Positions 899 through 48,090 of a stretch of 64,000 bases of DNA are shown one piece after another. The stretch comes from Clavaria fumosa. Taxonomy: Eukaryota; Basidiomycota; Agaricomycetes; Agaricales; Clavariaceae. Made by a program: the position numbers and the translations under genes. The notes below the pieces were generated by a model. The model was not told where the DNA came from. It was given only the letters and a program-made list of their open reading frames with translations, and did no database searches. Each line of letters starts with the position of its first letter. Position 1 is the first letter of the stretch. The DNA lies in the NCBI GenBank assembly GCA_951802425.1, contig OX637797.1, positions 1,364,001 through 1,428,000 on the forward strand. The letters run 5' to 3'.

Positions 899-3800
899 AA
901 GATTTGTTCTCCTGAACAAACTCCGCAACGGCCTCCTTCGTGCATGTGAGGTTCTCCAGGGGTTCCCAGGTATTCTCCTCGGGTGGGTAGCCAGTCCAGC
1001 TCACCAGGTACTGGACCTTCCCTCTCCTCTTTCTCTTGGCTAGGACTCGTTCGACATCATACTGCTCGCCTCCCTCTATGAGTTCAGGCAGTGGTCGGAC
1101 AGAAGACGGGTCTCCTCAGAAGGGCTTGAGCAAGGTCTCATTGAAGACCGGGTGGATTCGCCAGCTTGGGGGAAGGGTAAGGCGGTAAGCCGAGGTTCCT
1201 ACCTTCTCTTCCACAGGGAAGGGACTGACGAACTTAGGCCCAAGCTTCTTGGAGGGGAGTTTGAGGGGAAGGTTCCATGAATCTAAATACACCAGGCCAC
1301 CTTTCCTATAGATCTCCGGTTCTCACGAATGGTCGTCATAGGTTGCGGAGTCAGTTGCTTGTCCCTTCCGCAAGACATCCCGGAGGCAGTCACGGGCAGC
1401 AGAAATTCGTGCAAGGAACTCGTCGGCAGCAGGTATATCAAAGCTGGTGGGGAAATCGGGGATCGGGACAGGGTCGAAACCATGGAGAGCCGAAAAGGGA
1501 GTGATGTCTGAGTTGCGAATGGGTCGCGAGTTGAGAGCGAACTGGGCGAGGGGGAGTACGGCGGCCCAGTCGGCCTGGTCTTCCTTGGTCAGTGCATGAA
1601 GGACTACTTTCACTTCCTGGTTGGCCCTCTCCACTTGTCCGTCTGTTTGCGGGTGGTAGGCAGTGGAGGCGGCAGATCTGATGCCTAACTTATCATAGAC
1701 CTCGCGCATGAACTTGGAAATAAACTGGCCCCCTCGATCAGACACTACCTTCTCCAGAAGCCCGTAGTAGGCATAGATCTTCTTGAGGAGAATCGAGGCT
1801 GCTCCCTCTGACGTGAGTTCCTGAACAGTCGGGGCAAGGACAATTGTCTTGGTCAAGTAATCTTTGATGACCAAAATCATGTCGTAACCAGCAGATTCCG
1901 AGACAGGGCCGATCAAGTCCCAACCAATGACTTGCCAAGGTCGCAAGGGGATTGGGAGAGGGTGGAGGGGAGCCGGCTTTCGTCCACATCGGGGTTTGAT
2001 CCTCAGGCAGACATCGCAGGCGATAACGTAGGCATGGGTGTCCTTCTTAAGTGTGGGCCAGTACCAGTACTTTGCGACCGCAACCTGGGTTTTGGAGATC
2101 CCCGGGTGTATGGTAGTTCGAGCTGAGTGGTGGAGGTTGAGGATGTCCTTTACGAGTGATGCCGGGACCCAGAGCTTCTTGTGTACCCAAAAGTACCCTT
2201 CCTTATCCTTCTCTGCTTCTTCTGGAGGGGTCTCCAGGGCCTGTTCAATCCTCAACTTCTCTGTTAGAGACAGGGTTTCATTGACCTGGAAGAAGTGGTC
2301 CGGTAACAGGACTTGGGTGGGGCGGGGAGGTTGGTCGTCGTAGTCGGGGTGTCGGGAAAGAGCATCAGCGGCGGCGTTCGACTTTCCAGAGCGAGGAACG
2401 ATCTTGAAACGGAAGAGGGACAGGAACTGTCTCCATTGGTTCTGGCATCCATTGAGTGGGTTTGGCTTCCAGAAATACGAAAGGTTCTTGTGGTCCGTAT
2501 GGACCTCGAAGTCCTGGCCGAGGAGGTAGTGTTGCCACTCCTCAAGTGCTCTTACCACTGCGAGGAGTTCCAGGTCATAGACATCGTAATTTAGTTGGGC
2601 GTCCTGGAGCTTCGTCGATAGGCAGTCCACCATTCTCCACACTCCGTCCTGTTGCTGGTACAGGATAGCCAAGGTCGCGATCTCGCTGGCGTCCGTCTCA
2701 ATCTTCCACGGCATTCCATCCTGTGGGATCACAACCTGGACCGAATTCCGGATTGCATCCTGGATGTCGTAGAACGACTTTAGCATGGCATCCGTTAATT
2801 TAAATTCACCTTTGCCGGTGCAGGCATGGAGTGGGGCGGCAATTTTGGCATAGTTTGGAATGTATCATCAATAGTAACTTCCGAGGGCCATGTACCTACA
2901 CGCATCCTTGGCAGATTTCGGAATTGGCCAGTTGTCGATTGCTGAGCACCTCTTCTTGCTTTTCTCGATGGTCCCCTGCCAGATCTTGTTTCTGAGGAAA
3001 GTCACCTCCGTTCGCTCGAACTCGCACTTCACAGGGTTGACGGTCAGATGGTTTTCTTGAAGAACCTGGAAAACATGCGCAGCAAGGTCACGGAGTTCCT
3101 TGCGGGTATCAGAGCAGATGAGGATGTCATCAATATAAACGAAGACCTGGCCAGTGGCCACCAGATCCTTCAGGATGCTGTCCATGAAACCCTGAAAGAT
3201 TGCGGGTGCATTAGTCACTCCGAAAGGCATGACTTGACAGAGGAATTGGCCATATTCGCATATGAACACCAACAGCTTCTCACTCTCCTTCGATGCCCGG
3301 ATGTTGTTGAACCCGATCTGGATATCAATTTTCGAGTAGTACCGGAACTTCTGCAGGCGATTGTAGATGTTCCAGATGAGAGGGAGAGGGTAGGCGTTCT
3401 TGACCATGACTTCATTTAGCTCTTTGTAGTCGACCACAGGCCGGAGCTTGTCTCCTTCGTTCTTGAAAAAGAGAGGGCTAGCCCAGGGCGACTGACCTGG
3501 ATAAATTTGTCCAGTCATGAGGTTCTCGTCTAACCACTTCCGGAGCTCTGCGTGGTAGGCCTTGGGCATTGGGTAAATCTGGGACTGGTATGGATGGGCG
3601 CCCTCCTCTAGCTGGATGTCAATGTCGACTCTGGGATGGTGCGGGGGTAAAACATTATAAAACTCTTCTCCGAATACTCGTGGAAAGAGAGTCGGCCAGT
3701 CGGGGGAGTCATTCACGATGACACGGACTGCAGCACTGCAAGGAAGGTCGCAGCAATGTTGGAACTCGAGGGAGCGAGTTCACCAGTCAATAGTGGGATT

Positions 3801-5892: not shown

Positions 5893-6520
5893 TGTCACGG
5901 TCAATCCTAAATCTGGAGCTCAAAGGTCGCGGTGAGGTCACGACAAGGTCGCGAGGGTCACGTGGGTAGCTGACATAAAGGCTCAACAAGGAGGTAGAAA
6001 GAGGTGATTTCTGGAGAATATCAAAGTCTAGGGAATACATGCCAAGTGTCTACTCATATATATACTGGAGTCCAAGACCATAGGAACGATATCAGTACAA
6101 GGTAGTAAGAGAAGACATACAATGGAAGTGACGGTAGGGAGGAAATGAAAGTATCCGGGCAACGATCGCGAAGTTGTTATGGTCCCAAGAAGGGAAGCGT
6201 TGGTCGGCAGGGAAACGGGATAGCGGTATAAGGGCACCAGGGGAACAGGAAGTCATCGTGGGAAAGAGGTGGGGATGCCAAGGGGACAGGATAGCGGTAT
6301 AGGCGGGATGCGGGAGAGTACAAGGTCGCGTTAGGGATGGTCGTTTGATGGGCGATGTCAAGTGTCAGCCCGTTGACAGGGTGATGGCATCCCGCTTGAT
6401 GTGCCATCACATATTTGGGCCATACTGTCAGTGGTGGTCACGTGAGTTCTCGTGACTTACTGATCATGTGACAGGTCACGTGTCCGCGACCTTTTCGGGT
6501 CACGTGATGTCGCCACAACA
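5893..6520 (-). repeat. 5' LTR of element 1
   Basis: 628 bp, TGTCACGG...CACAACA on the plus strand, partner of 258-885, followed by the target duplication CTCAT. Confidence 0.95.
6017..6063 (-). promoter_or_regulatory. LTR promoter and predicted transcript start of element 1
   Basis: The TATATATA box at 6056-6063 precedes the sequence AGACTTTGATATT (6029-6017) on the minus strand by about 27 bases. The start is therefore predicted near 6029, which places the self-priming sequence at the RNA 5' end. The start is inferred, not measured. Confidence 0.65.
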
Positions 6521-28156: not shown

Positions 28157-28459
28157 TGTCAGACTTAGTCTCACGGTTCACACAACTTAACATAAGGTCG
28201 ATGATGACGATACTAACATAAGGGGAAAAGGGTACAAGTAAGAAAACGACGGGTATATATAGCGAACAGTTCGGGAGTTGCCGGCATTCCCACGCTCGGA
28301 CCCCGTGCGTCACGTGATGCGTCCAGGCCCGGATCACGTGATTTCCCATTATGTAATCCACCACCCATTTAGGTCACGTGACTCGTCCGCAAACTTCCCG
28401 CAACTCTTTTGCAATCCTTCCTTGGCCTTTTCGACCTGCTTATGTAAGCGATCCTGACA
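28157..28459 (-). repeat. 3' LTR of element 2
   Basis: 303 bp, TGTCAGAC...CCTGACA. It differs from 41088-41391 mostly at CpG positions (for example CACGG/CACAG, GTGCGTC/GTGCATC, GTCCGC/GTCTGC). Confidence 0.93.
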
Positions 28460-28470
28460 TCACCCCCCTC

Positions 28471-29101
28471 TTAAGGCTGGGCGTCTCGACCTGCCAACTT
28501 CACCTTGTCAGGGTATTGCTGGAAGAAGTCCCAGAGCAACAGTGCAACGTTAGTGAGGTTGCAACGAGGTTCCCAGGTGTTCTCCTCTGCAGGGTATCCT
28601 AACCACTTCACCAAATACTTCACTCCCCATCCAACCTTCTTGGCATCAAGAATTTCCTCCACCTCATACTCCAAGTGGTCGTCGTCAATTGTGGGGGGTG
28701 GGGGTGGAGGCAAGTTCTGGGAAGGGAAAGAGGGAGCAATATATGGGGTGAGTAGCAACTCATTGAAAACCTGGTGAATGCGCCATGCTTGGGGGAGCTT
28801 GAGTTGGTATGCTGCTGGTCCAACCTTCTCTTCGATAGTGAAGGGTCCAGCCCGCTTGTTGTCAAGCTTCTTAGATGGTCGATCCATTTTCAGGTTCCGG
28901 GTATCCAGCCAGACTAAGTCCCCCTTTGAGTATTCACGACTCGGGCGCTTTCCTTTATCATAGCTAGCCTTCATCGCATCTGCCACCTTCCCCATTGCAT
29001 CCCTGGCTGCTCTTCAGGATTCCGTGAGCTTGGCCATCCACTTGTCTGCTGCAGGGTTCACTTCAGAAGGCGGCCGGATACCACCATTCCAAGGGTGCCG
29101 G
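28471..29101 (-). pseudogene. pol: Element 2 pol, C-terminal part (integrase tail and chromodomain)
   Basis: Reading from the element 3 junction at 29101 down to the stop at 28471: the SREYSKGDLVWLDTRNL integrase C-terminal domain, WRIHQVFNELLLTPY, and a chromodomain VKYLVKWLGYPAEENTWEP. A TGA near 29010 interrupts it (TES-stop-RAARDAMGK). Across the element 3 insertion the frame is continuous with the protease fragment (…DGKIR then HPWNGG…), which indicates an older in-frame internal deletion. Confidence 0.85.
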
Positions 29102-30019
29102 TGTAAGGACCATATGCGATCTAAACACGGAAACATGACAGATACCGACTATCCGGATGTTTTGCGATCCAAAGAAATTACGTGCGATACGAACCGATAA
29201 CGATCCGACACCGTCCGATAACGACCGATAGTATCCGATACATGTCCGATGTCGGACACTTCGGTCTTCAATCCCCCGTGACGATCACAGCCCACCGCTC
29301 TCACACACCGCCCACGCCTCTCTATTTCACCTCTCCAGCACGGTCAGCGCTCGACATACACACTATTCCATTCCCATTCCTTTATTTCATATACCATGCT
29401 GTAAATTTCATATTATGATCCCTTTCAACCATTCAATCGTTTAAACGTTTCAAACCCTTTGCAGTACCTTGTCCATTGTTCTTAGTACCCCTTTGCTGTA
29501 CCAGCCCCACTTTCCTTCAGTTTATGAGCGGTCCGGACATTTGCTAGTTATCGGACATTTCATTCCTCCGAGCTACTCATTTCCCTTGTGATATAACTCC
29601 TTCATGTAACCCTTCACGCGACATGGCGCTGTTCCATGTGTTTTCCGGACATTTCCGTACATTCCAATTTGCTGTACTTACAGAACTGTACTTAAGTACA
29701 CTCCGGACCTCTCTGAAATACAGCTTTCTGAACCCCTTCTCTCTGTTAGAAACCTCACCTAAGCTCACCCGTCGTCGCAACCTTCGATCCGCTGGCCTCC
29801 GTCGTTGCCGGCCCTTCGTCTTATCGCACCATCCTTATCGGATTTTATCGGACACATAGCAGAATATCCCGGACACCGTATATTTCTATTTCTCACACAT
29901 TTTGAATTCATACTCCACATCCTCAAGGGTGTTTGGTGAATCTCTAACGCCTTACAGGAACCCCTGAAGGACTTGACTGTAATCAAGCAGTTGCAGCAAG
30001 AACCGTAATACCCACTACA
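29102..30019 (+). repeat. 5' LTR of element 3
   Basis: 918 bp from TGTAAGGACC to CCCACTACA. Identical by eye to the 3' LTR apart from a T-run length difference (CAGCTTTCTG against CAGCTTTTCTG). Confidence 0.95.
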
Positions 30020-30023
30020 ATTC

Positions 30024-30041
30024 TGGAGCCCACCGCGAGGG
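30024..30041 (+). other. Probable tRNA primer binding site of element 3
   Basis: Four bases after the 5' LTR the sequence reads TGGAGCCCACCGCG, beginning with the TGG that pairs with a tRNA CCA end. I could not assign the tRNA. This contrasts with the self-priming sites of elements 1 and 2. Confidence 0.55.
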
Positions 30042-30408
30042 GTTCAACAAGACGTCTTCACTACCACCCTCAAGGATTCCCAGAGGCTCATCCGCTCCTC
30101 AGCCTCGACGCTCCGAACGCCTGAGAAGTCGAAACCCGAATCCGATCACAGAACCACCGCCCTCCGAACCCCCCGGAGAAGTAATTGAAACTTCCCACCT
30201 TCTTCCATCGGACATTCCCAGTATCTCATCCATTGTCTACTCCCACACGAGTTTCACCACTCCGGATCCCTCACTACCACAGACCTTCGAACAACCACAC
30301 TCACCACTTACACCACTTCCCCTTGAACCAGACATCCTTCATTTCCCGCCCGAAACACCTCAGAATTCACCAGACGAAGTTCACTCACCGCCCCACGCAC
30401 CAATACAA

Positions 30409-32406
30409 ATGGCCAACCAACCGAGATATCCGCTCCGTGGCGCCCACGGGGCCCCTGCCTTTGACGGAGTACCGACACACCTCAACCGGTACTTCGAGGA
30501 CATCGACATCGTGCTCACCGGCGTCAACCCGGACGTTCCAGAACCCGATTTAATTCGGTACGCCAAGCACTATCTCGACACCGATACGTGTCTCCTCTGG
30601 GAGACTCTTTCACCTGACCCGGACCCGGTATGGACGTGGGATACCTTCAAAGCGGCCGTCCGACGACTTTATCCAGGATCTGATGGAGGTCGCTTATTTT
30701 CCGTCGCCGACCTGGACCGTTTCATATCGGACTCGGCCCAAAAGGGAGTTTACACGCGCGCAGAACACGGAGAATACTATCGGGACTTTCTCCGGATCAC
30801 CTCGCACTTGATCACATCACAGCGTATGTCCACAAATGACAGGAACCGACTTTACATCCTCGGATTTGGGGATCATACAAGGCGTCGGATCGAAAGCCGA
30901 CTCGCTATCATACTACCAAACCACCATCCGGAGGATCCTTACCCCATGAATGAAGTACATGGTGCAGCCGAATTTCTTCTCTCCTCGACGTCCCCCCACT
31001 CTGCGACAACCGATCAACTTTCCGGACCCGTCCATCTCGCATCTTCAGCCCCCGGGAGAGAAACGAAACCGGTAGTCAAGAAGGAAGAATTTGATATGTC
31101 CGCAGCCTGGGCAACATTCGCTTCCACAATGGCTCGCCTGGAATCGATTTTGACAGCCCAATCTCTCGAACCGGCAAGACACTCCGCTCCCCGGACAACG
31201 AACTCTCCCGCAGGCCGGACGTGTAATTTCTGTTCGGAAATAGGTCATTTTGTTAGTGCCTGTCCGAAGGCCCTCGAATACATTAAGTCCGGCAAATGTA
31301 TACGGAACACAGAAGGCAGGATTTGTCTCCCCTCCGGACGATATTTGCCAGGCACTATCTCAGGGAACAACCTATCCGAGCGCTTCGACAAGTACTACGC
31401 TACATACCAATCCCAGAACACGCAACCGGCGACAACCGCGGTATTTGAAGCACAGCCGATCGGACAATCCGCTCACCCCCCGGACATGGAAGACGATTCG
31501 GACGAGGAAGATGACGAGAATACCGTGTTGGAAAACATGGTCCGCACCTTTGCAAACGATGTCGCGAAGAAAGTAGACAAGGGCAAAAGGAAAGCACCCA
31601 CACCCAGGAATACCGATCCTCAGCCATCTAGGTTATCGCCCCCACCCGCCGTTGTTATTACGCCGCCTCAGGTCACTCGTCCATCAAAGCCGGAGAAAAT
31701 CGAACGACCCGACGTCCAGTACCATTACCAAGCTCCGATCGAAAATCCGGTAACCGTTCAACAAGTATTCGATCGCGCACTCGACATGCCAGTCCGCGTC
31801 ACACCTCGCGAACTACTCGCCATTTCCGGAGACATCCGCAAAAAGATGAAGGATGTGGTTACCGCTCGTCGCGTTCCGGTCACCGCGTCCGTCGTACAGG
31901 ATACGCTCTATACAAACATTACGGTCCCGGACACCTCCGATCTTGTTGTCGCCGTCGACGCTGCTCCGCTCCGCATCGTAGAAGGGATATTGGACAACCG
32001 GATCGCCGCGGAGTGCCTGCTCGACCAAGGCAGCTCAATCGTGGCAATGCGAAGAGACGTTTGGGAGAAACTCGGCAACCCACTACACTCCGAGAACGTT
32101 ATTCACATGGAATCCTCTCATGGCACCATCGCTCCGACCCTCGGACTCATCAAGAATTTCCCCCTACAGATCGGTCCGTGCACATTCCATGTTCAAATGC
32201 AAGTAGCAGACACGTTGCCCTGCAAGGTTCTTGTCGGACGACCGTTTTTCATGTTAACCGGTTCCCAAACGATTGACCATCCCCACGGGGCCCAGGACCT
32301 TATTCTCAACGATCCAAACACCGGAGAAAGAATCATAGTGCCAACGAAGGAGCGAATCCCGATCCGCAAATCCTTGAAGAACAAGAAACCGCATCCGGAT
32401 TTTTGA
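30409..32406 (+). CDS. gag: Element 3 gag and retropepsin-like protease
   Basis: 665 aa, uninterrupted. It has a capsid-like N-terminal half, a CCHC zinc knuckle CNFCSEIGHFVSAC (about residues 270-283) that binds RNA, a charged linker, and a C-terminal retropepsin-like domain with LLDQGSSIVAM where typical retroviral proteases have D-T/S-G, followed by VLVGRPFFML. The first ATG is 30409, although the frame is open upstream into the leader without another ATG. Ends at TGA 32404-32406, overlapping pol in the -1 frame. Confidence 0.9.
   Translation: MANQPRYPLRGAHGAPAFDGVPTHLNRYFEDIDIVLTGVNPDVPEPDLIRYAKHYLDTDTCLLWETLSPDPDPVWTWDTFKAAVRRLYPGSDGGRLFSVADLDRFISDSAQKGVYTRAEHGEYYRDFLRITSHLITSQRMSTNDRNRLYILGFGDHTRRRIESRLAIILPNHHPEDPYPMNEVHGAAEFLLSSTSPHSATTDQLSGPVHLASSAPGRETKPVVKKEEFDMSAAWATFASTMARLESILTAQSLEPARHSAPRTTNSPAGRTCNFCSEIGHFVSACPKALEYIKSGKCIRNTEGRICLPSGRYLPGTISGNNLSERFDKYYATYQSQNTQPATTAVFEAQPIGQSAHPPDMEDDSDEEDDENTVLENMVRTFANDVAKKVDKGKRKAPTPRNTDPQPSRLSPPPAVVITPPQVTRPSKPEKIERPDVQYHYQAPIENPVTVQQVFDRALDMPVRVTPRELLAISGDIRKKMKDVVTARRVPVTASVVQDTLYTNITVPDTSDLVVAVDAAPLRIVEGILDNRIAAECLLDQGSSIVAMRRDVWEKLGNPLHSENVIHMESSHGTIAPTLGLIKNFPLQIGPCTFHVQMQVADTLPCKVLVGRPFFMLTGSQTIDHPHGAQDLILNDPNTGERIIVPTKERIPIRKSLKNKKPHPDF
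32397..32403 (+). promoter_or_regulatory. Candidate -1 frameshift heptamer GGATTTT
   Basis: The gag frame reads CCG GAT TTT TGA, so the heptamer is G-GAT-TTT with the stop codon directly after. Slipping one base back gives GGA TTT TTG AGA, which is the pol frame. GGAUUUU is an accepted slippery heptamer (dianthoviruses use it). Function here is inferred. Confidence 0.7.
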
Positions 32407-35400
32407 GAGCTGGAGCCTCGAATGTCCGCAAACCAACGGACTTACCTCCGATCAATGTGGACACGGAAGCTATACCCAGATACGAGACTCCAGCCATTTT
32501 TCCTACTTCCGTTCACGTTCCCTTATCGTTTTCCCTTATAAACCCAGTCTCTCTCGACCCCTTCCCCTGTATCAGTATCTCGGACGTTTCTCTCGATTCC
32601 GCTGATTCCCCAGTCGCTATCGGACGTGAACCGTCGCGTCCAAATGTTGCAACCCCCTTGTACAACAAAACCCCCGAAATAAATTCCCTGTCTACGGACG
32701 CCGTTCTTCCAGTTTACTTGGGAAAGAAATATAAGAAAGTCGCGAATCGCGTCAATCCGATCAAAGCGACAGTACCCAAAGAATTCCGGATTGTCCGACG
32801 CCGACACCCGGACCCCCTAGCCGATATGCCAACTCTTCCGACCCATCCCCCCGATTTCACCCCCGGTCTTCGATACACTCAAAACCGGAAAGACACGCAC
32901 AACGCCAACCCCACCGGATTCTTATGGCCGGAGGAAGAAAAACTCGTTCACCATCTTATTAAAGCCCAGGAAGACGCCTTCGCTTGGAAAGAGACCGAAA
33001 AAGGACGATTCGACGCAAAATACTTCGATCCGATTATTATCCCGACAGTCGAACATATCCCTTGGATCTTCAAAAATATACCGATTCCCCCCGGTATTTA
33101 CGACGAAGTTCTCAAAGTAATCCGGGAAAAGATCGCAGCTGGCGTTTATGAAGAATCCAACTCTTCTTATCGGTCCCAGTGGTTTTGCGTGTTAAAGAAA
33201 GACGGAAAGTCTCTCCGACTCGTGCACAACCTCCAGCCGCTTAACAAAATCACTATCGGCGATTCCGCGGTCCCCCCGATAATGGAGGTTTTTGCGGAAT
33301 CATTCGCCGGACGCGGATGTTACGGATCACTCGACCTTTTCGTCTCCTTCGATCAGCGGTCTCTGGACGAACGAAGCCGAGACCTCACCACGTTTCAAAC
33401 CCCTCTCGGAGCAAAACGGCTCACCTGCGTCCCCATGGGATACACCAACGCGACGCAGATTATGCATGGAGACGTCACGCATGTTCTACAAGATGAAATT
33501 CCGCACGTAACCATCCCATTCGTAGACGATGTAGCGATCAAGGGCCCGGAAACCCGATACGAGCTTCCGGACGGCACCTACGAGACGATCCCTGAGAATC
33601 CGCAAATACGACGATTTGTTTGGGAGCATTTAAATAACGTCAACCGGGTGCTCCAACGAATCAAGAAAGTCGGAGGAACCTTTAACGGCAAGAAAACGAC
33701 AATTTGCGTTCCCGAAGCAGTCGTTACCGGACATACGTGCACATACGAAGGACGAGTTCCGGATGCCTCCAACGTTCAGAATATCCGGGACTGGCCTCCT
33801 TGCAAAACCCTGACCGATGTCCGATCATTTTTAGGGGTTTGCGGACTACTCCGGATATTCATTAAAAACTACGCCGTACTTGCCCGACCTCTTGTCAGTC
33901 TAACTCGCAAGGACGTGCCATTCAGATTCGAAAAAGAAGAACAAAACTCGATGGACCGACTCAAACACGCGATTCTGAACTCATCCGCCATCCGACCAAT
34001 CGACTACCACTCCGGACAACCCGTAATTCTCGCCGTCGACTCATCAAATATCGCCGTTGGTTTCGCACTCTTCCAAATTGGAGAAGATGGAATACGATAT
34101 CCCTCCCGCTTTGGCTCCATTACCTGGAACGAACGCGAGGCCCGATACTCACAAGCAAAAATCGAATTATACGGACTCTTCCGCGCACTTCGGTCGTACC
34201 GGATTTACCTTATAGGCCTTCCGAAATTTACTGTCGAAATGGACGCGAAGTTCATTAAGGGTATGCTAAACAATCCGGACATTCAACCCAACGCTGCCAT
34301 GAATCGATGGATTGCCGGTATACTACTCTTCGATTTCGATCTTGTTCATATTCCCGCAGATAAGCACACCGGAGCCGACGGACTATCACGCCGACGTGCC
34401 GCAGATGGTGAAGAAGATACCGAGTCTGAAGATCACGAAGAATGGATCGATCGGAGCTACGTATTCGCCATGGAACACATGAATCGAGCACCGGACGCTT
34501 CCTACACATCCGAGACACGACTCGCCGGCATCACCCATACTCGCTTCAAAGTTTACACAGGATCGACGCTACTCAATTCGACGGTACCACCCGAGGAATC
34601 ACCGACCCCGAACGAATCTTCCGCCGTCCTTATACCCCGATCCGATGCAGCAAACAAAAGAGAAGAACAGATTCGCAAAATTGAATCTTTCCTTCGAAAC
34701 CCGATCCGTCCCTCCGGCATTGACGCAAACCAGTTCCGACGACTGGTCCGCTCCGCATCCGAGTTCTTCATCCTAGATGACAAATTATGGCGTCGCCGAC
34801 CTAACGGATACCACCAAGTAGTACCTCCGGACCACAAACGTCTCGCAATTATCACAGAGGCACACGATTCACTCGGCCACAAAGGCGTTTACGTTATCCG
34901 GACACGTATTCTAAATCGGTTCTGGTGGCCGGTGCTGGATCAAGACGTAAAATGGTTTGTCAAAACTTGTCACCAATGCCAAACTCGGCAAATCCGGAAG
35001 ATCTTCATTCCACCGACGGTCGCTACACCGGCCGGTCTTTTCCGTCGAGCGCACATTGATACTATGTTCCTACCAAGAGCCCGCGGTTTCCGACTTCTCG
35101 TCCACGCCCGATGCTCATTATCCGCATATCCGGAAGCAAGACCGCTACGAAACGAGACCGCCCGACTTCTCGGAACCTTCATATTCGAAGATATACTATG
35201 CCGATGGGGAGCAGTAGAAGAGATTATCACGGATAACGGAGCCCCATTTATCAAAGCCCTCGATTTCCTTAAGAAACGGTACGGAATCCATCACATCCGT
35301 ATATCCGGATACAACTCCCGCGCTAACGGCGTCATCGAACGTGCCCATCGATCGGTCCGTGAGTCGTTAATCAAAGCAGCAGATGGAGACGATTCGAAAT

Positions 35401-36140
35401 GGCCGGACGTTTTACCCTCAGTCATTTGGGCAGAACGAACCACGATCCAACGGTCCACCGGCCACTCCCCATTTTACATCGCACATGGCGTCGAACCGCT
35501 TTTCCCCTTCGACATATCCGAAGCAACATATTTAATTCCGACCGCCGACGCCCCGATGACCACTCCGGAACTGATAGCCCTTCGTGCCCGCCAACTGCAA
35601 AAACGAGAAGAAGATCTAGCAACAATCGCCGATAAAGTGCTCGCTGCCCGCAAACAATCCGTCAAGCAGTTCATCGACGCACACCGGAAGTCTATTATCG
35701 ACTACGACTTCCAACCCGGATCGTTGGTATTGATCCGCAATTCGGCCGTTGAAATGGAATTAAATCGAAAAACAAAACCGCGATTCTTCGGACCGATGAT
35801 CGTCGTTCGCCGAACACAATATGGCGCCTATATTCTCTCGGAACTCGACGGCGCCGTTTCCAAAATCCACTACGCAGCTTTCCGCATCATTCCCTACTAT
35901 CCGAGGTCGCAAACATCGATTCCGGTCACTTCTATCATCGACCAAACGACGGAGATAAACGAGGACATCTCTCCCTATCAAATACACGAGGCGTCACCCA
36001 ACTCTATCGACAGAGAAGATGAGCAAAACCAAGCGGCTGACCTATCCGATGAATCCGATAATGAAACCACCGACGACGACACTGCAGAAACTCGTCCGCA
36101 ACGCTCCGGAGCAACCCGGAACCTTCGGCCTCGCCATTAA
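32403..36140 (+). CDS. pol: Element 3 pol: RT, RNase H, integrase
   Basis: About 1245 codons, uninterrupted, expressed presumably by -1 frameshift from gag (no ATG at its beginning). RT: CVLKKDGKSLRLVHNLQPLN, CVPMGYTNATQIMHG and the catalytic IPFVDDVAIKG (FVDD in place of YxDD). RNase H starts near VDSSNIAVGFALFQIG. Integrase: HHCC (HDSLGHKGVYVIR…CHQC) and the DDE core HIDTMFLP, ITDNGAPFIKAL and NSRANGVIERAHRSVRESL. The C-terminus is acidic, with no chromodomain. Intact catalytic residues suggest it could be functional. Confidence 0.92.
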   Translation: MRAGASNVRKPTDLPPINVDTEAIPRYETPAIFPTSVHVPLSFSLINPVSLDPFPCISISDVSLDSADSPVAIGREPSRPNVATPLYNKTPEINSLSTDAVLPVYLGKKYKKVANRVNPIKATVPKEFRIVRRRHPDPLADMPTLPTHPPDFTPGLRYTQNRKDTHNANPTGFLWPEEEKLVHHLIKAQEDAFAWKETEKGRFDAKYFDPIIIPTVEHIPWIFKNIPIPPGIYDEVLKVIREKIAAGVYEESNSSYRSQWFCVLKKDGKSLRLVHNLQPLNKITIGDSAVPPIMEVFAESFAGRGCYGSLDLFVSFDQRSLDERSRDLTTFQTPLGAKRLTCVPMGYTNATQIMHGDVTHVLQDEIPHVTIPFVDDVAIKGPETRYELPDGTYETIPENPQIRRFVWEHLNNVNRVLQRIKKVGGTFNGKKTTICVPEAVVTGHTCTYEGRVPDASNVQNIRDWPPCKTLTDVRSFLGVCGLLRIFIKNYAVLARPLVSLTRKDVPFRFEKEEQNSMDRLKHAILNSSAIRPIDYHSGQPVILAVDSSNIAVGFALFQIGEDGIRYPSRFGSITWNEREARYSQAKIELYGLFRALRSYRIYLIGLPKFTVEMDAKFIKGMLNNPDIQPNAAMNRWIAGILLFDFDLVHIPADKHTGADGLSRRRAADGEEDTESEDHEEWIDRSYVFAMEHMNRAPDASYTSETRLAGITHTRFKVYTGSTLLNSTVPPEESPTPNESSAVLIPRSDAANKREEQIRKIESFLRNPIRPSGIDANQFRRLVRSASEFFILDDKLWRRRPNGYHQVVPPDHKRLAIITEAHDSLGHKGVYVIRTRILNRFWWPVLDQDVKWFVKTCHQCQTRQIRKIFIPPTVATPAGLFRRAHIDTMFLPRARGFRLLVHARCSLSAYPEARPLRNETARLLGTFIFEDILCRWGAVEEIITDNGAPFIKALDFLKKRYGIHHIRISGYNSRANGVIERAHRSVRESLIKAADGDDSKWPDVLPSVIWAERTTIQRSTGHSPFYIAHGVEPLFPFDISEATYLIPTADAPMTTPELIALRARQLQKREEDLATIADKVLAARKQSVKQFIDAHRKSIIDYDFQPGSLVLIRNSAVEMELNRKTKPRFFGPMIVVRRTQYGAYILSELDGAVSKIHYAAFRIIPYYPRSQTSIPVTSIIDQTTEINEDISPYQIHEASPNSIDREDEQNQAADLSDESDNETTDDDTAETRPQRSGATRNLRPRH

Positions 36141-36198
36141 GTATTTTTTCTCCATCATATCCTTCATTTTTCTATACTTCACATTGATTCACACCTTC

Positions 36199-36226
36199 AA
36201 AAAAAAAAAAAAAAAAAAAAAAAAAT
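36199..36226 (+). repeat. 28-base A homopolymer downstream of pol
   Basis: A pure A run begins about 60 bases after the pol stop, marking the boundary between pol and the accessory region. It may be a relic of a captured polyadenylated sequence or a transcript-end signal. Homopolymer length is prone to sequencing error. Confidence 0.8.
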
Positions 36227-36367
36227 CGAAATTTCGGACAAGTCCAAACTTTATACCCGACGTTCTTTCAACCATTTTCTCACATTCTCACATTCCTCAC
36301 TTATCCCACACGACATACCATACCAAATAGAAAAAGAAAAACATATATAAAAACAAAAACAAAATAT

Positions 36368-37907
36368 TTACTTAGAGGACGACTCGCCAAGGAGGAGCAT
36401 CCGGAGCAGCTCCGCTCCGGCCTTCACCTGGTCCGCCCCCCTCTCCATCATCTCCAGCGCCCTATCGAGCGCCTCCCTCCCGGACACCCCTCGCGCCACC
36501 TCCCGCTCCTTACCCTTCCGACTTGGTCCCGCCTCCGCCTTCTTCTTCTTTGCCGGCGGCTCCTCCACCAGCTCCACACTGGTATCCTCCTCAATCTCGT
36601 CCTCCTCCTCCGGCGTCGTCTCCTCGCGAACCGGTACCCGCGTCGCACCTCGCCTCGGCCTCTTACTTCCGCTCGCTCCCGCCGCCTTCGGACCTGTTCC
36701 GATACGTTAGCAAATGCGGACCCGATACCTTCTCGACATACCTTCCGTTCCGGACACCGCCGCTCTCTCTGTTTTCGCTCCTGAAACACACCTATCATTT
36801 GTCTCATCATGAAAAATAAAAAGAATACCACTTACCTCGCACAGCCGACAGACTGCACGATACCTTATACGTCCGGCACCACCGGCACGCTATCCCCTCC
36901 ACTCCGTAGCACGCCCGCCACTTCCGGGTGCACTCCTTGCACCCCGGAACGTGCTCCTAATCATTATATCAGACGTCGAAAAAGCCTCACATATCTTAAT
37001 TAACCACTCACCTTATCTCCAGGCTGCCGCGCAGCCCGGGACTCTATGTCGCTCTTCGCCCCGCCTCTCCTCCCTCGCCCTCGCTCCGCTGCCTTCCGCC
37101 TCGCGATCTCCACCCACACCGGAGTCGCCATCGTCCCGGTGCACGAACATCGGCTCCTCCACCGACTGCTCGCCTCCCCCGGCCACCGCACTCACCGCCG
37201 CCGCCTCGATAACACCGACGGGCGTCACCCCGTCGGTTCCCCACACGGTCCGATGACCGTCCGGATCCTCCCCTGCCGCCACCTCGTCCACACGCAGCTC
37301 TCCGGCGTCCGGTGATATCGTCGTCGTTGTTACCGCCGCTGCACCGGACTCCGCCGCTCCCGTCGTCGTCGTTGTTGCCGCTGCCGCCGCCTCGCCCTCG
37401 TCGTCGCTGTCACTTACGACAATTAAGCGCGCCCGGGCAAGGCGCGCCCTCTTCTCGGCAGCCCTCGCCGCCTCCGCCCGCCTCTCCTCCGCCTCCGCCT
37501 CTGCTGCGGCCCGCTCAGTAGCCGCCCTCTCCTCGCTCGTGCGCTGTTTCTCGGCCTCGACCTCCTCCCGCCTTCTCGTCCGCTCAGCGGACCACTCGTC
37601 CCCGCGGAGCTTCCGCCACTTCTTGAGCCTTCGCGCGACCCGGACGAGTCCCTCGTCCACCTCCACGTCGTCGTCGATCGCTGCCACATATCCGGCAAGA
37701 AAATCGTCCTAAAAACGTTGTCAGTGCGATACAAAAAAGTACGAAAGATTCTCGTTCACGCACCGCGTCACCCGCATACGTCCCCACCCACTCCGCGCAC
37801 TCTCCATCCTGCCCCCGATCCGGCAACTCCTCGCCCGGCGCCATGGCCTGCGCCTCGGTCATCGCCTGGACTGCGTTTCGAAAGATTGAAGAATCGAAGT
37901 TTTCCAT
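36368..37907 (-). CDS. Antisense accessory gene of element 3: Zn2Cys6-like nuclear protein
   Basis: Six exons give one open frame of 412 aa: 37907-37764, 37708-37196, 37107-37012, 36956-36836, 36780-36742 and 36693-36368. Introns are 55, 88, 55, 55 and 48 bases; all are GT-AG and frame-consistent. The 88-base intron is the least certain but is needed to keep the frame. In order: an N-terminal ECAEWVGTYAGDA region, a Glu/Arg/Ala-rich likely coiled coil (residues about 75-140), an acidic low-complexity linker, a cysteine cluster at residues 257, 260, 267, 275, 278 and 285 (C-x2-C-x6-C-x7-C-x2-C-x6-C, the GAL4 binuclear zinc spacing), an acidic stretch, a PPAKKKK basic NLS-like run and a C-terminal helix. 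It lies wholly between pol and the 3' LTR and reads opposite to the element. A role in DNA binding or in regulating the element is inference. Confidence 0.75.
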
Positions 37908-38057
37908 TGTCGGAGAGTTGACGTGTTGCTGTCGCTCGAGAAAACACAAGGGTGTGTTTGGACCTATGTGCACCCACACGACGCGTACTTCACGATCAAC
38001 AAACCGTTATTTGGCCTTGTTTGGTTGCAACCGAGGGCGGTTGCATTTTCAGCCCCC

Positions 38058-38064
38058 GGGAGAA
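38058..38064 (+). other. Short polypurine tract of element 3
   Basis: GGGAGAA directly precedes the 3' LTR TGTAAGG, the expected position for plus-strand priming. The tract is short. Confidence 0.5.
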
Positions 38065-38983
38065 TGTAAGGACCATATGCGATCTAAACACGGAAACATG
38101 ACAGATACCGACTATCCGGATGTTTTGCGATCCAAAGAAATTACGTGCGATACGAACCGATAACGATCCGACACCGTCCGATAACGACCGATAGTATCCG
38201 ATACATGTCCGATGTCGGACACTTCGGTCTTCAATCCCCCGTGACGATCACAGCCCACCGCTCTCACACACCGCCCACGCCTCTCTATTTCACCTCTCCA
38301 GCACGGTCAGCGCTCGACATACACACTATTCCATTCCCATTCCTTTATTTCATATACCATGCTGTAAATTTCATATTATGATCCCTTTCAACCATTCAAT
38401 CGTTTAAACGTTTCAAACCCTTTGCAGTACCTTGTCCATTGTTCTTAGTACCCCTTTGCTGTACCAGCCCCACTTTCCTTCAGTTTATGAGCGGTCCGGA
38501 CATTTGCTAGTTATCGGACATTTCATTCCTCCGAGCTACTCATTTCCCTTGTGATATAACTCCTTCATGTAACCCTTCACGCGACATGGCGCTGTTCCAT
38601 GTGTTTTCCGGACATTTCCGTACATTCCAATTTGCTGTACTTACAGAACTGTACTTAAGTACACTCCGGACCTCTCTGAAATACAGCTTTTCTGAACCCC
38701 TTCTCTCTGTTAGAAACCTCACCTAAGCTCACCCGTCGTCGCAACCTTCGATCCGCTGGCCTCCGTCGTTGCCGGCCCTTCGTCTTATCGCACCATCCTT
38801 ATCGGATTTTATCGGACACATAGCAGAATATCCCGGACACCGTATATTTCTATTTCTCACACATTTTGAATTCATACTCCACATCCTCAAGGGTGTTTGG
38901 TGAATCTCTAACGCCTTACAGGAACCCCTGAAGGACTTGACTGTAATCAAGCAGTTGCAGCAAGAACCGTAATACCCACTACA
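38065..38983 (+). repeat. 3' LTR of element 3
   Basis: 919 bp, partner of 29102-30019, followed by the CCGG target repeat and the resumed element 2 sequence. Confidence 0.95.
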
Positions 38984-39457
38984 CCGGATCTTACCATCTC
39001 TGTTCTGTGTTCCATCCACATTATACATGGTGATTGGATTCAGCAAGGGAGATGGTTCCAATCCCACTTTTTTCGCCCACTCCAAGTCCATAAAGCAGTT
39101 GGTGCAGCCTGAGTCGACAAGGGCTTTCGTAGTTGCCCCTTTGCCAGTGCTGAGAGCCTCCAGGTGCACCTGGATGGAGAGCTCTCGGGGCATACGCAAT
39201 AGGGTGTCCTTCAGCACCTCTACAAGGTGCTTTGTTGGCTCCACTTGGTTGCTAGTCCCCTTTTCTCTTTTCGGTATTTCACTTTTAGTGGTTTCCGTTT
39301 CCGCTTCGTCCTTCACCTCAGCCCCAATCCGGGTGTGTCTCCGCTGCAAGATAGTGTATTTTGGGATACTAGCTGCAGGTACAGGGATGGGAGGGGGGCT
39401 GGGATATCTACTCCTGAGACTCCAGTTCGGACTCACTGGGCCTTGTCTCCAAAATCC
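38984..39457 (-). pseudogene. pol: Element 2 pol, N-terminal part (protease)
   Basis: The -1 frame relative to gag, entered at the GGATTTT heptamer (39457-39451 on the minus strand). It contains a linker and a retropepsin domain with KALVDSGCTNCFMDLEWA. It is cut at 38984 by element 3. No ATG lies at its beginning (GTG at 39436), which supports frameshift expression. Confidence 0.85.
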
Positions 39458-40434
39458 GGCTCCTCAACAGGAGCCCTTTTCTCTCTCTCAAGCAAATCCA
39501 GGCGGTCTCGGAGCAGTGCGATCTCGTTCTCATAGTCCTCTGCACTACATGCCTGGCTTTCCATGGCGCAGACCTGTGGCCTCGGGATCTGCGGACGTGT
39601 GTCCTGGAGCTGGCAATCTCTCACCATGTGACCAGCTTGGCCACATCGGAAGCAGGTGCGCAACACTCCAGGGGCACGGGCACGATCCACCACCATGGCA
39701 TCACCAACATTGGTGGGACGCGGCATGGTGGGAGGGGCAGGGGTGCGGGCCAGAGGCTGGGCCAGGAAGGGACGGGGGGCTGGGGTGAAGTGGGTTTGTT
39801 GAGGGAGGGGGCGGCTGGTTGCAGGCAGAGCAGGATGCACAGAGTTCTGTTGTGTGATGACTCCATCGAGGCGACGCTGCTGAGCATCTAGCTTTTCGGC
39901 AAGTGCCTTCCACTGCACATAGGTCTCTGGCATTGGCGAAACACCATAGACCTTTCCCACTAGCCTCCTGCTCAGATTTGACTCCAGCCAATGGACCAGG
40001 ATGTCCGAATCGGCCACTTCTGTCATCCCCGCTCTTCGGAACATCGTTTCGAACTTTGCGAAGAACTCAGGTGCTGTCATGACACCCTGTTTCAACCTTG
40101 CAATGTCTGCGAGGGCAGTCGCATGGTCGTTTGGGTCATCGAACGCTCGCTTCATCTCTTCCACAAATTCTGCCCAGGTTCCAACCTCGTTGTTACCCAG
40201 GATTTCCTCTCCCTTCACATTTGCCCATTCTGCGGCAAACCCCTTGCCAGTAATTTTGCTGAGGGTGTAGAGGACCTTTGCCAGGTCTGTGGCATAGATT
40301 ATCAGATTTGCCATAAACAGGAGGCGGAGCGACCGGAGGAATGTACAGAAATTTCTTTTTTGCCCATCGAATGGGGCGATGACTAAATCCAGCCTTGTGG
40401 CATGGACTTCAGGTGGGGCGACGTGGTCAGCCAT
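39433..40434 (-). CDS. gag: Element 2 gag
   Basis: About 333 aa, uninterrupted, from ATG 40434. It has a capsid domain with WAEFVEEMKRAFDDPNDHATA and LARLKQG-like features (ADIARLKQGVMTAPEFFAKF), as in Tf1/sushi-type gag proteins, and a CCHC knuckle CFRCGQAGHMVRDC near the C-terminus. It ends at TGA 39433. It is the only intact frame of element 2 and could in principle still make particles for the deleted element. Confidence 0.88.
   Translation of the reverse strand: MADHVAPPEVHATRLDLVIAPFDGQKRNFCTFLRSLRLLFMANLIIYATDLAKVLYTLSKITGKGFAAEWANVKGEEILGNNEVGTWAEFVEEMKRAFDDPNDHATALADIARLKQGVMTAPEFFAKFETMFRRAGMTEVADSDILVHWLESNLSRRLVGKVYGVSPMPETYVQWKALAEKLDAQQRRLDGVITQQNSVHPALPATSRPLPQQTHFTPAPRPFLAQPLARTPAPPTMPRPTNVGDAMVVDRARAPGVLRTCFRCGQAGHMVRDCQLQDTRPQIPRPQVCAMESQACSAEDYENEIALLRDRLDLLEREKRAPVEEPDFGDKAQ
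39451..39457 (-). promoter_or_regulatory. Candidate -1 frameshift heptamer GGATTTT in element 2
   Basis: Minus-strand gag codons CCG GAT TTT GGA, i.e. G-GAT-TTT, 16 bases before the gag TGA (39433-39435). The -1 frame from here is open into the protease. Confidence 0.7.
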
Positions 40435-41075
40435 CACAGACCCTGGTGGTGGTGATGGGGTTTTGGGGACGTCAGTAACAGGGGAATCGGGGGGGAGCTG
40501 GGCTCGACCCGGTCTCGGACACAGACGCTGTAAATAGAATTCCAGGCCTTGGGCACTCAGGATTTCTTCGATCTCTTAGCAGTCCTGTCCTCTCAGGCTG
40601 CTCTCTATGTATCTAGGTACTTATAGAACTCTTATTCTATAAAACTTGTTGCTAGCGTGGGGCCTGAATGGTGTCCCAGGTGGTCACTCCACAACTCCTA
40701 GTGAGTTGCCCGTGTGCCCTTCTGACAATGGTCACAGAGCAAGGGCCCTGTCCACTGGACCAGGAAACTACAGAAAAACTATGTATAGGGCCTTTCCGTG
40801 CCCTGTACACTACACGATTCACTGGTACGTAGCTGTAAAGCAAAGTTCTGGGCCTTTGGCACTCGGTGTCTCTTGGGGAGGGTCACAGTAGACTTCCTCC
40901 GGGTCTGGTCACATGTATCTACACACAGTAAAAATTTCACACGGTTCTGTTGCACACCGTGGGCAGGGTAAAGAGAAAGAGGATGAGGGGGATAAGCTGT
41001 CACAGAGTGTGACAGTTTGAGATAGGGGTCCAGGCTAGCTGGGTTAGGACACGGGGCTAGGGCGGACAGGGGTTG
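40435..41075 (-). other. Element 2 untranslated leader
   Basis: About 640 bases between the primer binding site and the gag ATG with no long ORF on the coding strand. It may hold packaging signals; nothing specific is recognised. Confidence 0.5.
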
Positions 41076-41087: not shown

Positions 41088-41391
41088 TGTCAGACTTAGT
41101 CTCACAGTTCACACAACTTAACATAAGGTCGATGATGACAATACTAACATAAGGGGAAAAGGGTACAAGTAAGAAAACGACGGGTATATATAGCGAATGG
41201 TTCGGGAGTTGCCGGCGTTCCCACGCTCGGACCCCGTGCATCACGTGATGCGTCCAGGCCCGGATCACGTGATTTTCCCATTATGTAATCCACCACCCGT
41301 TCGGGTCACGTGACTCGTCTGCAAACTTCCCGCAACTCTTTTGCAATCCTTCCTTGGCCTTTTCGACCTGCTTATGTAAGCGATCCTGACA
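41088..41391 (-). repeat. 5' LTR of element 2
   Basis: 304 bp, followed by the target duplication AAACC (41392-41396). It contains the TATATATA promoter box on the minus strand. Confidence 0.93.
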
Positions 41392-41396
41392 AAACC

Positions 41397-45090: not shown

Positions 45091-45746
45091 TCACAAACAG
45101 TTACATCACGTGATGAAACTGATTTATGCGTGACAAACGATGTATTTCACTCAGCATATGCTCTCACAGCAATTTAATTAAAATAATGTCTCAGAGGTCG
45201 ATAGGCAATTGTCTTGTACACAATCCCATGTCATTATAATTCCAGATTTTAACAAATTGAAAGACAAGTAGCATTTGCAAGGCTTGGGTGTGCATAAAGA
45301 GTGACAGGTGCGTGACAAAGCTCCTAAACGCACATTCAAAAATGCTACTCGTCCTTCAATTTGTTGAAATCTGGAATTATAATGACATGGGATTGTGTAC
45401 AAGACAATTGCCTATCGACCTCTGAAGCAATATTTAAATTGCTGTGAGAGCATATGCTGAGTGAAATACATCGTTTGTCACGCATAAATCAGTTTCATCA
45501 CGTGATGTAACTTTTTTTTTTTTTTTTTTTTTTTTTTGAATCAGCATTTATATACCGCCACATGTGGCTAAGACAAAGACGCGGTTGTACATGAGGTACT
45601 TATTTTGGGTGATGTTCGGGGTGTGATGATTAAGGAGGTGGGTGGTGTATGTATTGTAGGTAGCTTTGCTGTGGTCTAGTGTGGGTCGGGTGGCTCCGTT
45701 GGTTGTGAAGCCACGTGATGTAACTGTTTGTGAATGCCTACCTTAC
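45075..45746. repeat. Long palindrome between the Zn2Cys6 gene and MED17
   Basis: The left arm 45075-45276 is inverted and repeated as 45340-45511 plus 45725-45746, with a loop of about 63 bases. The arms match closely (for example TCAGAGGTCGATAGGCAATT and its complement). The outer ends reach the starts of both neighbouring genes: GTTTGTGAATG followed by CTACCTTAC occurs on both sides in mirror image. A LINE-like insertion interrupts the right arm. It could be a MITE with long terminal inverted repeats or an inverted duplication of a promoter. Confidence 0.85.
45512..45711 (-). mobile_element. 5'-truncated LINE-like insertion in the palindrome
   Basis: A 200-bp insert reading on the minus strand and ending in ATAAATGCTGATTC plus a run of about 26 A. 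It is flanked by a 13-bp direct repeat CACGTGATGTAAC (45499-45511 and 45712-45724). It shares its 3' end with the copies at 11980-12063 and near 62245. No coding sequence. Confidence 0.85.
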
Positions 45747-45859: not shown

Positions 45860-48090
45860 CTTGTCATGGAAGGGACTCAGGCTATCTCTCGAGAGACTCT
45901 ACAAGGACGATAGTGGAGAGCCTATTCCCGCGCTATTTGACATAACTCCAGATGGTGAGCATGTCTACGAACCGTGCGTACAAAGGTGTAGTATGCTAGG
46001 CATTCAGCTTATCTCTTTAACTAGTAAGCACGACCCTTCCAAGCGGCTGGGAGAGAGATTGCGGAGAATTTTTTCGGAACGCGGTGTGGATTTCTTCGAA
46101 GGAGACGCTGTCCAGCGCCTGATAGAGGGTACTGCATCTGCGCAGACGGAAGAGGTTTACCCAACACAAGATAAAATTGTCGTCTCTGATATGCAGGAAA
46201 TTTTTTCGCATAACATGACTCCCGAAGGGCTGTTCAAGATGCGAATGGAGATCCTCCCGCAGCTTTAGTGAGCATCCTTGTTAATGTCAGGTGTTTTGGA
46301 TTGACATCGCTAGTGTGGCGCTTGGAGAGATGTCGCATGCCAAGGATTTATTAACTCTGCTTCTCTCCTCTACAAGCGCGTCAGCGTCCCAGCTGCACGC
46401 CGAAACGTCTGCCCAATCTTCTGGCACGGCCACTTTGACAGCAACAATTGTGACGAAACCTCCCCCTATTCCCTCGGTCCAGGCATTCAATAGGCAGCTA
46501 GTCATTGGTAGCAAGGATGAATCGCTGCGTAAAGCGTCAGACCTTTTCAGAAGCGCAGCCAATACAGTGGAGCGCGGCCGCATCCGAGGCGAAACGTATT
46601 GGGCCGATGCGCTCCGAATGCGCAGAGCAAATTGGGGCCTCATTCCCGCGCCTCTCCCTTTTGGCTCTGCCACAGGCAAAGGTGCAGATAAAACATCAAA
46701 AGACTTTCTTGTCTCTTTTGGTTTGGAGGAATGTCAGTATCTGCTCCGCGGCCGTTTGTCGACGCTGACGAGATTCACTTCAGCGCCCGCAACTTTCCGA
46801 CGGCGTGCTGTTGGGCATATACCGACGCTGGATCTTTTACCTGATGCTGAACCATTGGTGTTTCCCTTACGCCAGCGTACTCGGCTTCGAGTATCCTTTA
46901 AGACGTCAGGTTCCGACGGTGATCGTACTGTTACCCGACACAATCTCATCGATGCTGCGAAGGACGGTACTCTCGATGGGTGTTTGCGTTCCGCTCAGCA
47001 GGAAGTCGTCGAGCAAGAGATATTCTCCATCCTTGTGCGAGAAGCTCCCAATTTACTCACAGCCACAGCCCGCGTGTCAGAAAGACTCATCGTCGTCGAA
47101 GTGGTTCAGAACATAGAGTTAATATTCGAACTCGTGTGTTATCTTGTCTTCCCTTCCCGCCTTAATTTCTCAAGCCGGTCAAGGTCGACAGCTCAGCCAC
47201 CGAGGCGTCAGCGCAAGTCTTTCACGAGCTTCCGTGGAAATGTGACTTGATATATGCAGCGCTGCACGTCCTTTTGCTGCGTCTTCATGTCTATTATAAG
47301 GAACAACGGCTCGGCGCCACTGGCATCGCCCAAATGCCAGCTGCATTCCCAGTCCAGGCCCCACCCGTCCTACAACCGATCATCGATTTCCTGCAATACG
47401 AAGTCTTTTGCAAGCGCGTGAAGGCGGAACTGGAACGAGCTGTGGCCGCTCTCACCAAGGCCGGCATCCACGCTAATTTGAGAATTTCGCCTGTGGGAGA
47501 GAGCGGTCATCAACTCGCAATGTTGCTCAGCGAACGCCAAAGACGGAGGACGACTGGGGAGGCTGTTGTAAGAATCGACAAACGGTGCGACACTAACTGT
47601 CTATCTGCACTTTGACTTAGAGTAGGACGCAGATTCACCATTCGTTTGACTTTTGCATCCCCTTCGACGCTGACGGCTCACCTTTCACAAGCGACCCTGG
47701 CCATTCCCTCCATACCACAGCTGTGCCAGTTGCTGTCCAACGAAATAGAACGTTACCTCCTACGGAGATTATGCGAGCTAGGCAGTAAGCTATGCGAAGG
47801 AGTCAAGGGAACATGGTTTGTTGACGAGGTGAAAGGCAGGAGTGTCGGTCGATGGGAAGGCTGCGTATTGTGAGCTAACCCTTCAAGAGTCACGTGTCTT
47901 GACAATTTACCACTTTTAAAGAAATTTGCAGGTGCAATGTGCTCACGATTTTGACATAAATTGTACGGCGCTCCGCTTGATTCAGGACCTGGAACACGCG
48001 GAGAGTTTACATCACGGCTATACACCACAAGACGACATTTCTCTGTTGGTATGGGCAGAAGGGACCATCAGAGAATCATTAGTATCATGA
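45849..48090 (+). CDS. MED17: Mediator complex subunit 17 (Srb4)
   Basis: MED17 is a core subunit of the Mediator head module, which links activators to RNA polymerase II. 671 aa from six exons: 45849-45973, 46025-46267, 46314-47133, 47175-47584, 47621-47869 and 47922-48090; phases agree throughout. Landmarks are WKGLRLSLERLYKDDSGEPI, ALGEMSHAKDLLTLLLSS, YWADALRMRRANWGLIPAPL and FASPSTLTAHLSQATLAIPS. The introns are short: 51, 46, 41, 36 and 52 bases. The 36-base one (47585-47620) is required to avoid a TGA and keeps RIDKR in the coding sequence. Converges on RPL5 with 96 bases between stops. Confidence 0.9.

Follow-up and report, generated by a model that had tools for sequence, protein, structure and literature searches.

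A gypsy retrotransposon of the fungus Clavaria fumosa carries an antisense gene with introns between pol and its 3' long terminal repeat (LTR), and it is near certain that this gene is a real part of the element, spliced and kept by selection. The element lies in a 64,000-nt stretch of contig OX637797.1 (assembly GCA_951802425.1, positions 1,364,001 to 1,428,000), here called the window, whose numbering is used throughout. The gene is on the minus strand and runs from an ATG at 37907 to a stop at 36368, between the pol end (36140) and the start of the 3' LTR (38065). As to its role, the best single explanation is a self-encoded nuclear regulator acting on a row of sites in the element's own LTRs, to which we give an even chance. 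The function of antisense accessory genes in LTR retrotransposons is an open question, those of plants and of the fungal element Boty being called unknown in PMC7264820. The present element supplies a candidate domain, introns that make antisense expression directly measurable, many copies both young and old, and, in the LTR, a candidate target. Should this row be bound by the protein, the element would be a fungal retrotransposon with its own dedicated transcription factor.

Splice sites were projected over 41 copies, the 40 fetched ones having been picked by their match to the C-terminus of the gene. The resulting model has five exons (144, ~700, 121, 39 and ~330 nt) and four introns, placed in the window as follows.

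37764..37907, minus strand: exon 1, 144 nt, with the ATG at 37907 (copy projection)
37709..37763, minus strand: intron 1, GT-AG in 35 of 41 copies
37012..37708, minus strand: exon 2, with a charged helix-like stretch, an SDSDDE run and a frame-breaking deletion (copy comparison, junction search and inspection by eye)
36957..37011, minus strand: intron 2, GT-AG in 38 of 41 copies
36836..36956, minus strand: exon 3, 121 nt, holding the entire six-cysteine domain (Cys codons 36941-36855)
36781..36835, minus strand: intron 3, GT-AG in 38 of 41 copies
36742..36780, minus strand: exon 4, 39 nt (copy projection)
36694..36741, minus strand: intron 4, GT-AG in 39 of 41 copies
36368..36693, minus strand: exon 5, 326 nt, with basic runs resembling a nuclear localization signal (NLS), an acidic run, a conserved helix-like C-terminal end and the stop

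The exact lengths of exons 1, 3 and 4 (144, 121 and 39 nt) recur in 38, 39 and 39 of the 41 copies, and the introns are retained across copies while their lengths drift. Thirteen copies, including the near-identical siblings L001-L008, have all four introns and a frame that stays open up to the last 8 residues, at most, of the projection. The eight siblings all read open and encode proteins of 419-445 amino acids (aa); their exon 2 varies (693 nt in L002, 630 nt in L007), the differences from 708 nt being multiples of three. The introns outlive retrotransposition, which fits a process in which reverse transcription uses the sense RNA alone. A first-pass annotation of the window had proposed just this, namely that an antisense orientation keeps introns through the element's RNA, and the conservation of introns among copies agrees with it. 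The same annotation was right about the position, strand, start and stop of the gene and its GT-AG introns.

The gene is nevertheless broken in the window copy, and open copies exist elsewhere in the genome. The window copy lacks 11 nt of exon 2 that are present in all eight siblings, and its frame, read with the four conserved introns, therefore meets a stop at residue 280. The junction left by this deletion has a single match in the 48.8-Mb assembly (17 contigs), which is the window itself. The 16 fungal zinc-cluster domains of this genome and its 50-nt introns agree with a fungal host. The first-pass annotation had instead described six exons and an uninterrupted 412-residue protein. Such a reading requires an extra 88-nt intron, for which enumeration gives two candidates; the one at 37195-37108, with the stronger donor (GTGAGT), was probably used. 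We dropped the six-exon model because the siblings need no additional intron: they run exon 2 straight into exon 3, and the copies show five exons and four introns. The extra intron sidesteps the deletion of the window copy.

Judged by substitution patterns, the exons are under purifying selection as protein. The pooled ratio of nonsynonymous to synonymous polymorphism (pN/pS), taken from 13 named copies (11 for exon 2), was 0.32 for exon 1, 0.39 for exon 2 and 0.31 for exons 3-5 in the frame of the gene. Four of the other five frames gave 1.14-1.75, and the mirror frame 0.41-0.47. For diverged copies of the coding genes of the element the ratio was 0.24 in pol and 0.17 in gag (L001-L008, L011 and matches outside 60-97% identity were left out). 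Pairwise ratios of nonsynonymous to synonymous substitution rates (dN/dS), a check proposed in the first-pass annotation, pointed the same way when copies were compared with L005: exon 1 gave 0.12-0.43 (26 copies), exons 3-5 gave 0.16-0.32 (23 copies) and exon 2 gave 0.24-0.68 (20 copies), where the top value belongs to L021, apparently frame-shifted. Because many copies have decayed, constrained and free evolution are mixed in these values. Between subfamilies dS is ~0.4-1.2, an old divergence.

Genome searches tie the gene to the element. The last part of pol has at least 146 matches, or 142 loci after merging, and exon 5 also has at least 146, of which 139 loci were used after seven small secondary fragments had been dropped. 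In 134 of the 142 pol loci, exon 5 follows downstream of the pol end at no more than 6 kb, always antisense (134/134), and the distance is 350-900 nt in 130; these counts are lower bounds, because 150 of 154 candidates were scored for pol and 150 of 151 for exon 5. Thus homologues do sit antisense after pol in other copies, which the first-pass annotation had named as a way to check its reading. Of the eight pol loci without exon 5, two belong to a related lineage (L041 and L042, 44% identity), three are short fragments, and three more make up the rest. The pol end is missing at five of the 139 exon-5 loci; of these, L002 was inspected and is an element whose pol match is truncated. The gene fits an antisense accessory open reading frame (ORF) of the aORF-3R kind in three respects: it lies antisense between pol and the 3' LTR, is found in most copies and encodes a conserved protein.

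Relatives of the protein are also present among database entries. Among the best 8000 candidates scored in the protein database there were at least six, all of them exon-2 open frames on short ENA/JGI contigs, the most distant (P0008) being 39% identical to P0003. Five of the six end in RQPGDK-V-S, a little beyond the position of the exon 2 donor, which agrees with the window; the remaining one ends earlier. The pattern hints at a gene, and a second intron, that may predate the species. In viral contigs, none of 67 pattern-matching stretches codes for a relative.

The carrier is an LTR element at 29102-38983, with the following parts.

29098..29101: target-site duplication CCGG, left
29102..30019, plus strand: 5' LTR, 918 nt (LTR pair comparison)
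29983..32406, plus strand: gag ORF, stop to stop, with a CCHC-like knuckle, a DUF4100-like part and an aspartic-protease-like end (sub-cut-off Pfam matches)
32277..36140, plus strand: pol ORF, stop to stop, with reverse transcriptase (RT), RNase H and integrase (ORF and Pfam)
38065..38983, plus strand: 3' LTR, 919 nt, the presumed site of the antisense promoter
38984..38987: target-site duplication CCGG, right

Its LTR pair, the CCGG duplication flanking it on both sides and the pol order RT, RNase H, integrase place it in Ty3/gypsy, in line with the young gypsy carrier of the first-pass annotation. In Pfam, RVT_1 scores 27.9 bits against a cut-off of 29.6, while RNase H and Integrase_H2C2 are above theirs. 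Because the 5' and 3' LTRs show no substitution between them and a single length difference of 1 nt, the element is judged to be very young, that is, recently active.

The six-cysteine domain in exon 3 has the exact GAL4-type spacing C-x2-C-x6-C-x7-C-x2-C-x6-C given in the first-pass annotation. Of 39 copies, 38 retain all six cysteines, the exception being L001, without the third, and Lys12 is present in 39 of 39; basic residues lie between Cys 2 and Cys 3, and no proline was seen in the loop between Cys 3 and Cys 4. Exon 3 of the window scores 11.2 bits against PF00172 (Zn_clus), under the gathering cut-off of 21, and 17 of 18 exon-3 peptides match this family at E <= 10 (best E 0.0023). The coiled coil that had been proposed before the domain is retained here as a charged helix-like stretch, and basic runs do follow where an NLS-like run had been placed, both as judged by eye. 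Other searches gave no match at E <= 1 with Pfam for the 161-aa C-terminus, with NCBIfam for three exon-3 peptides, or with Fungal_trans for one whole sibling protein, and none at E <= 10 with the PDB by sequence for an 80-aa piece. A PDB profile search returned one weak match, to Zygote arrest protein 1 (E 0.27), and the predicted structure model is of poor quality. Taken from sequence, a nuclear, DNA-binding role for the protein is plausible and, in our judgement, likely. A hydrophobic-acidic IVVSDSDDE run in exon 2 (37012-37708, minus strand) is retained in many copies and may resemble SUMO-interacting motifs.

The Zn2Cys6 proteins that have been studied well typically bind paired CGG triplets, and a footprint of Pho7 was placed on TCGGACATTCAA (PMC5559640). 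In the LTRs of the element, candidate sites of this type form a row of six CGG in the same orientation, mostly as TATCGG, with steps of 10, 10, 10, 11 and 11 bp, 250-310 nt upstream of the antisense ATG.

38157..38211, minus strand: row of six CGG (ATCGG-type sites) in the 3' LTR (site scan)
29194..29248, minus strand: row of six CGG in the 5' LTR (top of the chain at 29248, low end placed by the 8963-nt LTR offset)
38514..38522, plus strand: TCGGACATT, as in the Pho7 footprint (LTR scan)

A chain of six CGG at 10-11 bp arose in none of 1000 dinucleotide shuffles, and on both strands of the window the two LTRs hold the only CGG chains of five or more. Plain CGG is in mild excess in the LTR (38 against 25.4 in shuffles) and denser in the interior of the element. 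The excess is marked for TATCGGA (5, shuffle mean 0.16, maximum 3) and for [TC]CGGACA (7, shuffle mean 0.26, maximum 3). Pooled over 27 copies, the spacings peak at 10, 21, 31, 41 and 52 bp, near a period of 10.4 bp; left out of this pool were L001-L008, L016, L019, L025 and L032, with short or missing flank or exon 1, and the site-poor L024 and L039. In 15 copies chosen for shuffling after their sites had been seen, the observed number of 10/11-bp CGG pairs was matched by at most 4 of 1000 shuffles in 14, L023 failing (139/1000). A stricter test on chain length was passed at <=10/1000 by 11 of the 15 and failed by L023, L029, L036 and L038. Few or no sites are left in L024, L027, L030, L031, L033, L034 and L039. 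A scan for bacterial-type promoters and terminators found nothing, and is uninformative for this DNA.

Genome-wide, a triple ATCGG pattern occurs 380 times, against 19 for a reversed control. Among 100 listed places of the 380, an element locus is found no more than 12.5 kb away for 90; once neighbouring places are merged, the count is 47 of 57. Three other places with arrays were fetched, and LTR-like sequence of this kind is present in L044 (in pieces) and L045 and absent from L043. L043 has, at about position 1367, a ATCGGAGT-type row outside the element family and upstream of a gag-looking ORF; near-identical sequences to it are found at C1:780330, C1:3487357 and C3:573179. The related gypsy elements L041 and L042 lack both the six-cysteine motif and the CGG row. 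They have an unrelated 85-aa antisense ORF (1889-1635 in each, minus strand) about 50 nt past pol, with 23 genome matches and no Pfam match of note; antisense accessory ORFs may be a recurring layout in the gypsy elements of this genome.

In the explanation that we prefer, a lineage of gypsy retrotransposons would carry its own five-exon antisense accessory gene, transcribed towards pol from a 3' LTR promoter and then spliced. The predicted protein of ~420-460 aa, combining a long charged helix-like region, the GAL4-type six-cysteine domain and NLS-like basic runs, would enter the nucleus and bind zinc and DNA. In both LTRs its target would be the ATCGG-type half-sites, which recur once every helical turn; the protein would probably occupy them as a multimer lined up on a single face of the helix. 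Two transcription units would come under its control in this way, gag-pol read from the 5' LTR and its own gene read from the 3' LTR. Activation is slightly favoured over repression: at 92-146 nt from the outer U3 edge, the row is placed like an upstream activating site. A fuller claim is that an intron-bearing antisense zinc-cluster factor multimerises on phased sites of its own LTRs, making a self-contained circuit in which protein and row were kept together across subfamilies, convergent with deltaretroviral antisense regulators. This we hold more tentatively, at somewhat less than an even chance.

The row might be a degenerate 10-nt tandem repeat without binding function, unrelated to the gene. 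A tandem-repeat origin is possible, as TRF reports periods of 10 and 20 at 38156-38203, and several copies have no row. Against this, the phase is kept across subfamilies that differ in array length and spacer sequence, including L038 and L040 (exon 5 67% and 63% identical), and we consider a row without function doubtful, although it is the alternative to be taken most seriously. Somewhat less probable is a protein that binds nucleic acid or chromatin for the life cycle of the element (import of the pre-integration complex, integration targeting, or the particle) and has no part in transcription control. The basic NLS-like runs and the charged helix would suit it, and such roles have been suggested for antisense aORFs of unknown function (PMC7264820), but it leaves the phased LTR sites unexplained, and a particle protein would be made more simply from the sense RNA. 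It is unlikely, slightly more so again, that the six-cysteine module binds zinc for protein-protein contacts while the LTR row answers to a host factor. The sub-cut-off Pfam score, the poor structure model, the profile match to Zygote arrest protein 1 and the loop without a visible proline are consistent with it; the GAL4-type spacing, the basic residues that separate Cys 2 from Cys 3, and the fact that the family matched by 17 of 18 members is PF00172, speak against it.

Two further accounts appear very improbable. Antisense RNA rather than protein might matter, through double-stranded RNA control of the element, and retroelement antisense transcripts can feed silencing, as suggested in PMC7264820. 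However, selection acts at codon level (pN/pS 0.31-0.39), and introns and exon phases are kept. We give equally little credence to a host regulator lately captured by the element and serving the host, one of the possibilities raised in the first-pass annotation. Zinc-cluster proteins are common in fungi, and the genome has 16 PF00172 domains, but all of these are located apart from matches to the element family. In genome searches with exons 3 and 5, in which matches off pol were not inspected individually, no host donor gene was seen; the matches have the appearance of whole or partial members of the element family, so that nothing positive speaks for capture. In addition, 134 of the 139 exon-5 loci adjoin the pol end, and the subfamilies diverged long ago.

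Antisense extra ORFs between pol and the 3' LTR are described, without known function, for Grande, RIRE2, Retand and PvRetro13 and for the fungal Boty (PMC7264820). The same source reports a nuclear Grande product, transcribed from a promoter upstream of gene23, a SMC domain in PvRetro13 and a transposase 28 domain in Retand; in general, it describes no clear similarity of aORF-3R products to other proteins. The window gene shares with the plant aORF-3R its place, its orientation, its presence in most copies and its conservation. Compared by description, what sets it apart is a zinc-cluster-like domain with six cysteines, the candidate sites in the LTR and the four introns conserved among copies. 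Likewise likened by description, the closest fungal case is brtn, an additional antisense gene of Boty-like gypsy elements of Botrytis cinerea (Zhao et al., 2011; PMC8365987, PMC7264820), the host of which is an ascomycete. HBZ of human T-cell leukaemia virus type 1 (HTLV-1) is antisense, expressed from the 3' LTR, spliced, nuclear and of transcription-factor class (PMC10186651). The window gene resembles it in layout and may work in a similar way, but HBZ is a basic leucine zipper (bZIP) protein and retroviral, and the analogy is one of layout, with no homology claimed.

With the factors of PF00172 the protein shares the cysteine spacing, the basic stretch between Cys 2 and Cys 3 and CGG-type candidate sites; it departs from them in its sub-cut-off score, a helix-like region placed before rather than after the domain, the lack of a Fungal_trans match and its location in a retrotransposon. 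In searches over listings of open-licence papers we found no description of a spliced zinc-cluster antisense gene in a fungal LTR element. Antisense accessory genes at this place are known from plants and Boty; the spliced zinc-cluster-like gene with its phased LTR sites would be a further variant of these.

The surroundings of the young element hold further repeats. Repeats at 28157-28464 and 41088-41396, with 95-96% identity, flank it, and a Ty3_capsid/gag ORF lies beside it on the minus strand (39436-40575), so that the young element seems to be nested in an older or different one. A second LTR-like pair (258-557 and 5893-6192, 96%) surrounds minus-strand ORFs for RT, RNase H and integrase (1326-3779). 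Part of a host gene, Med17 (Mediator subunit 17), is found at 46285-47247 on the plus strand. Nested inverted repeats at 45095-45516 have arms of 86-101 nt that are 93-98% complementary; the sequence at 11976-12056 matches one of the arm regions in reverse complement.
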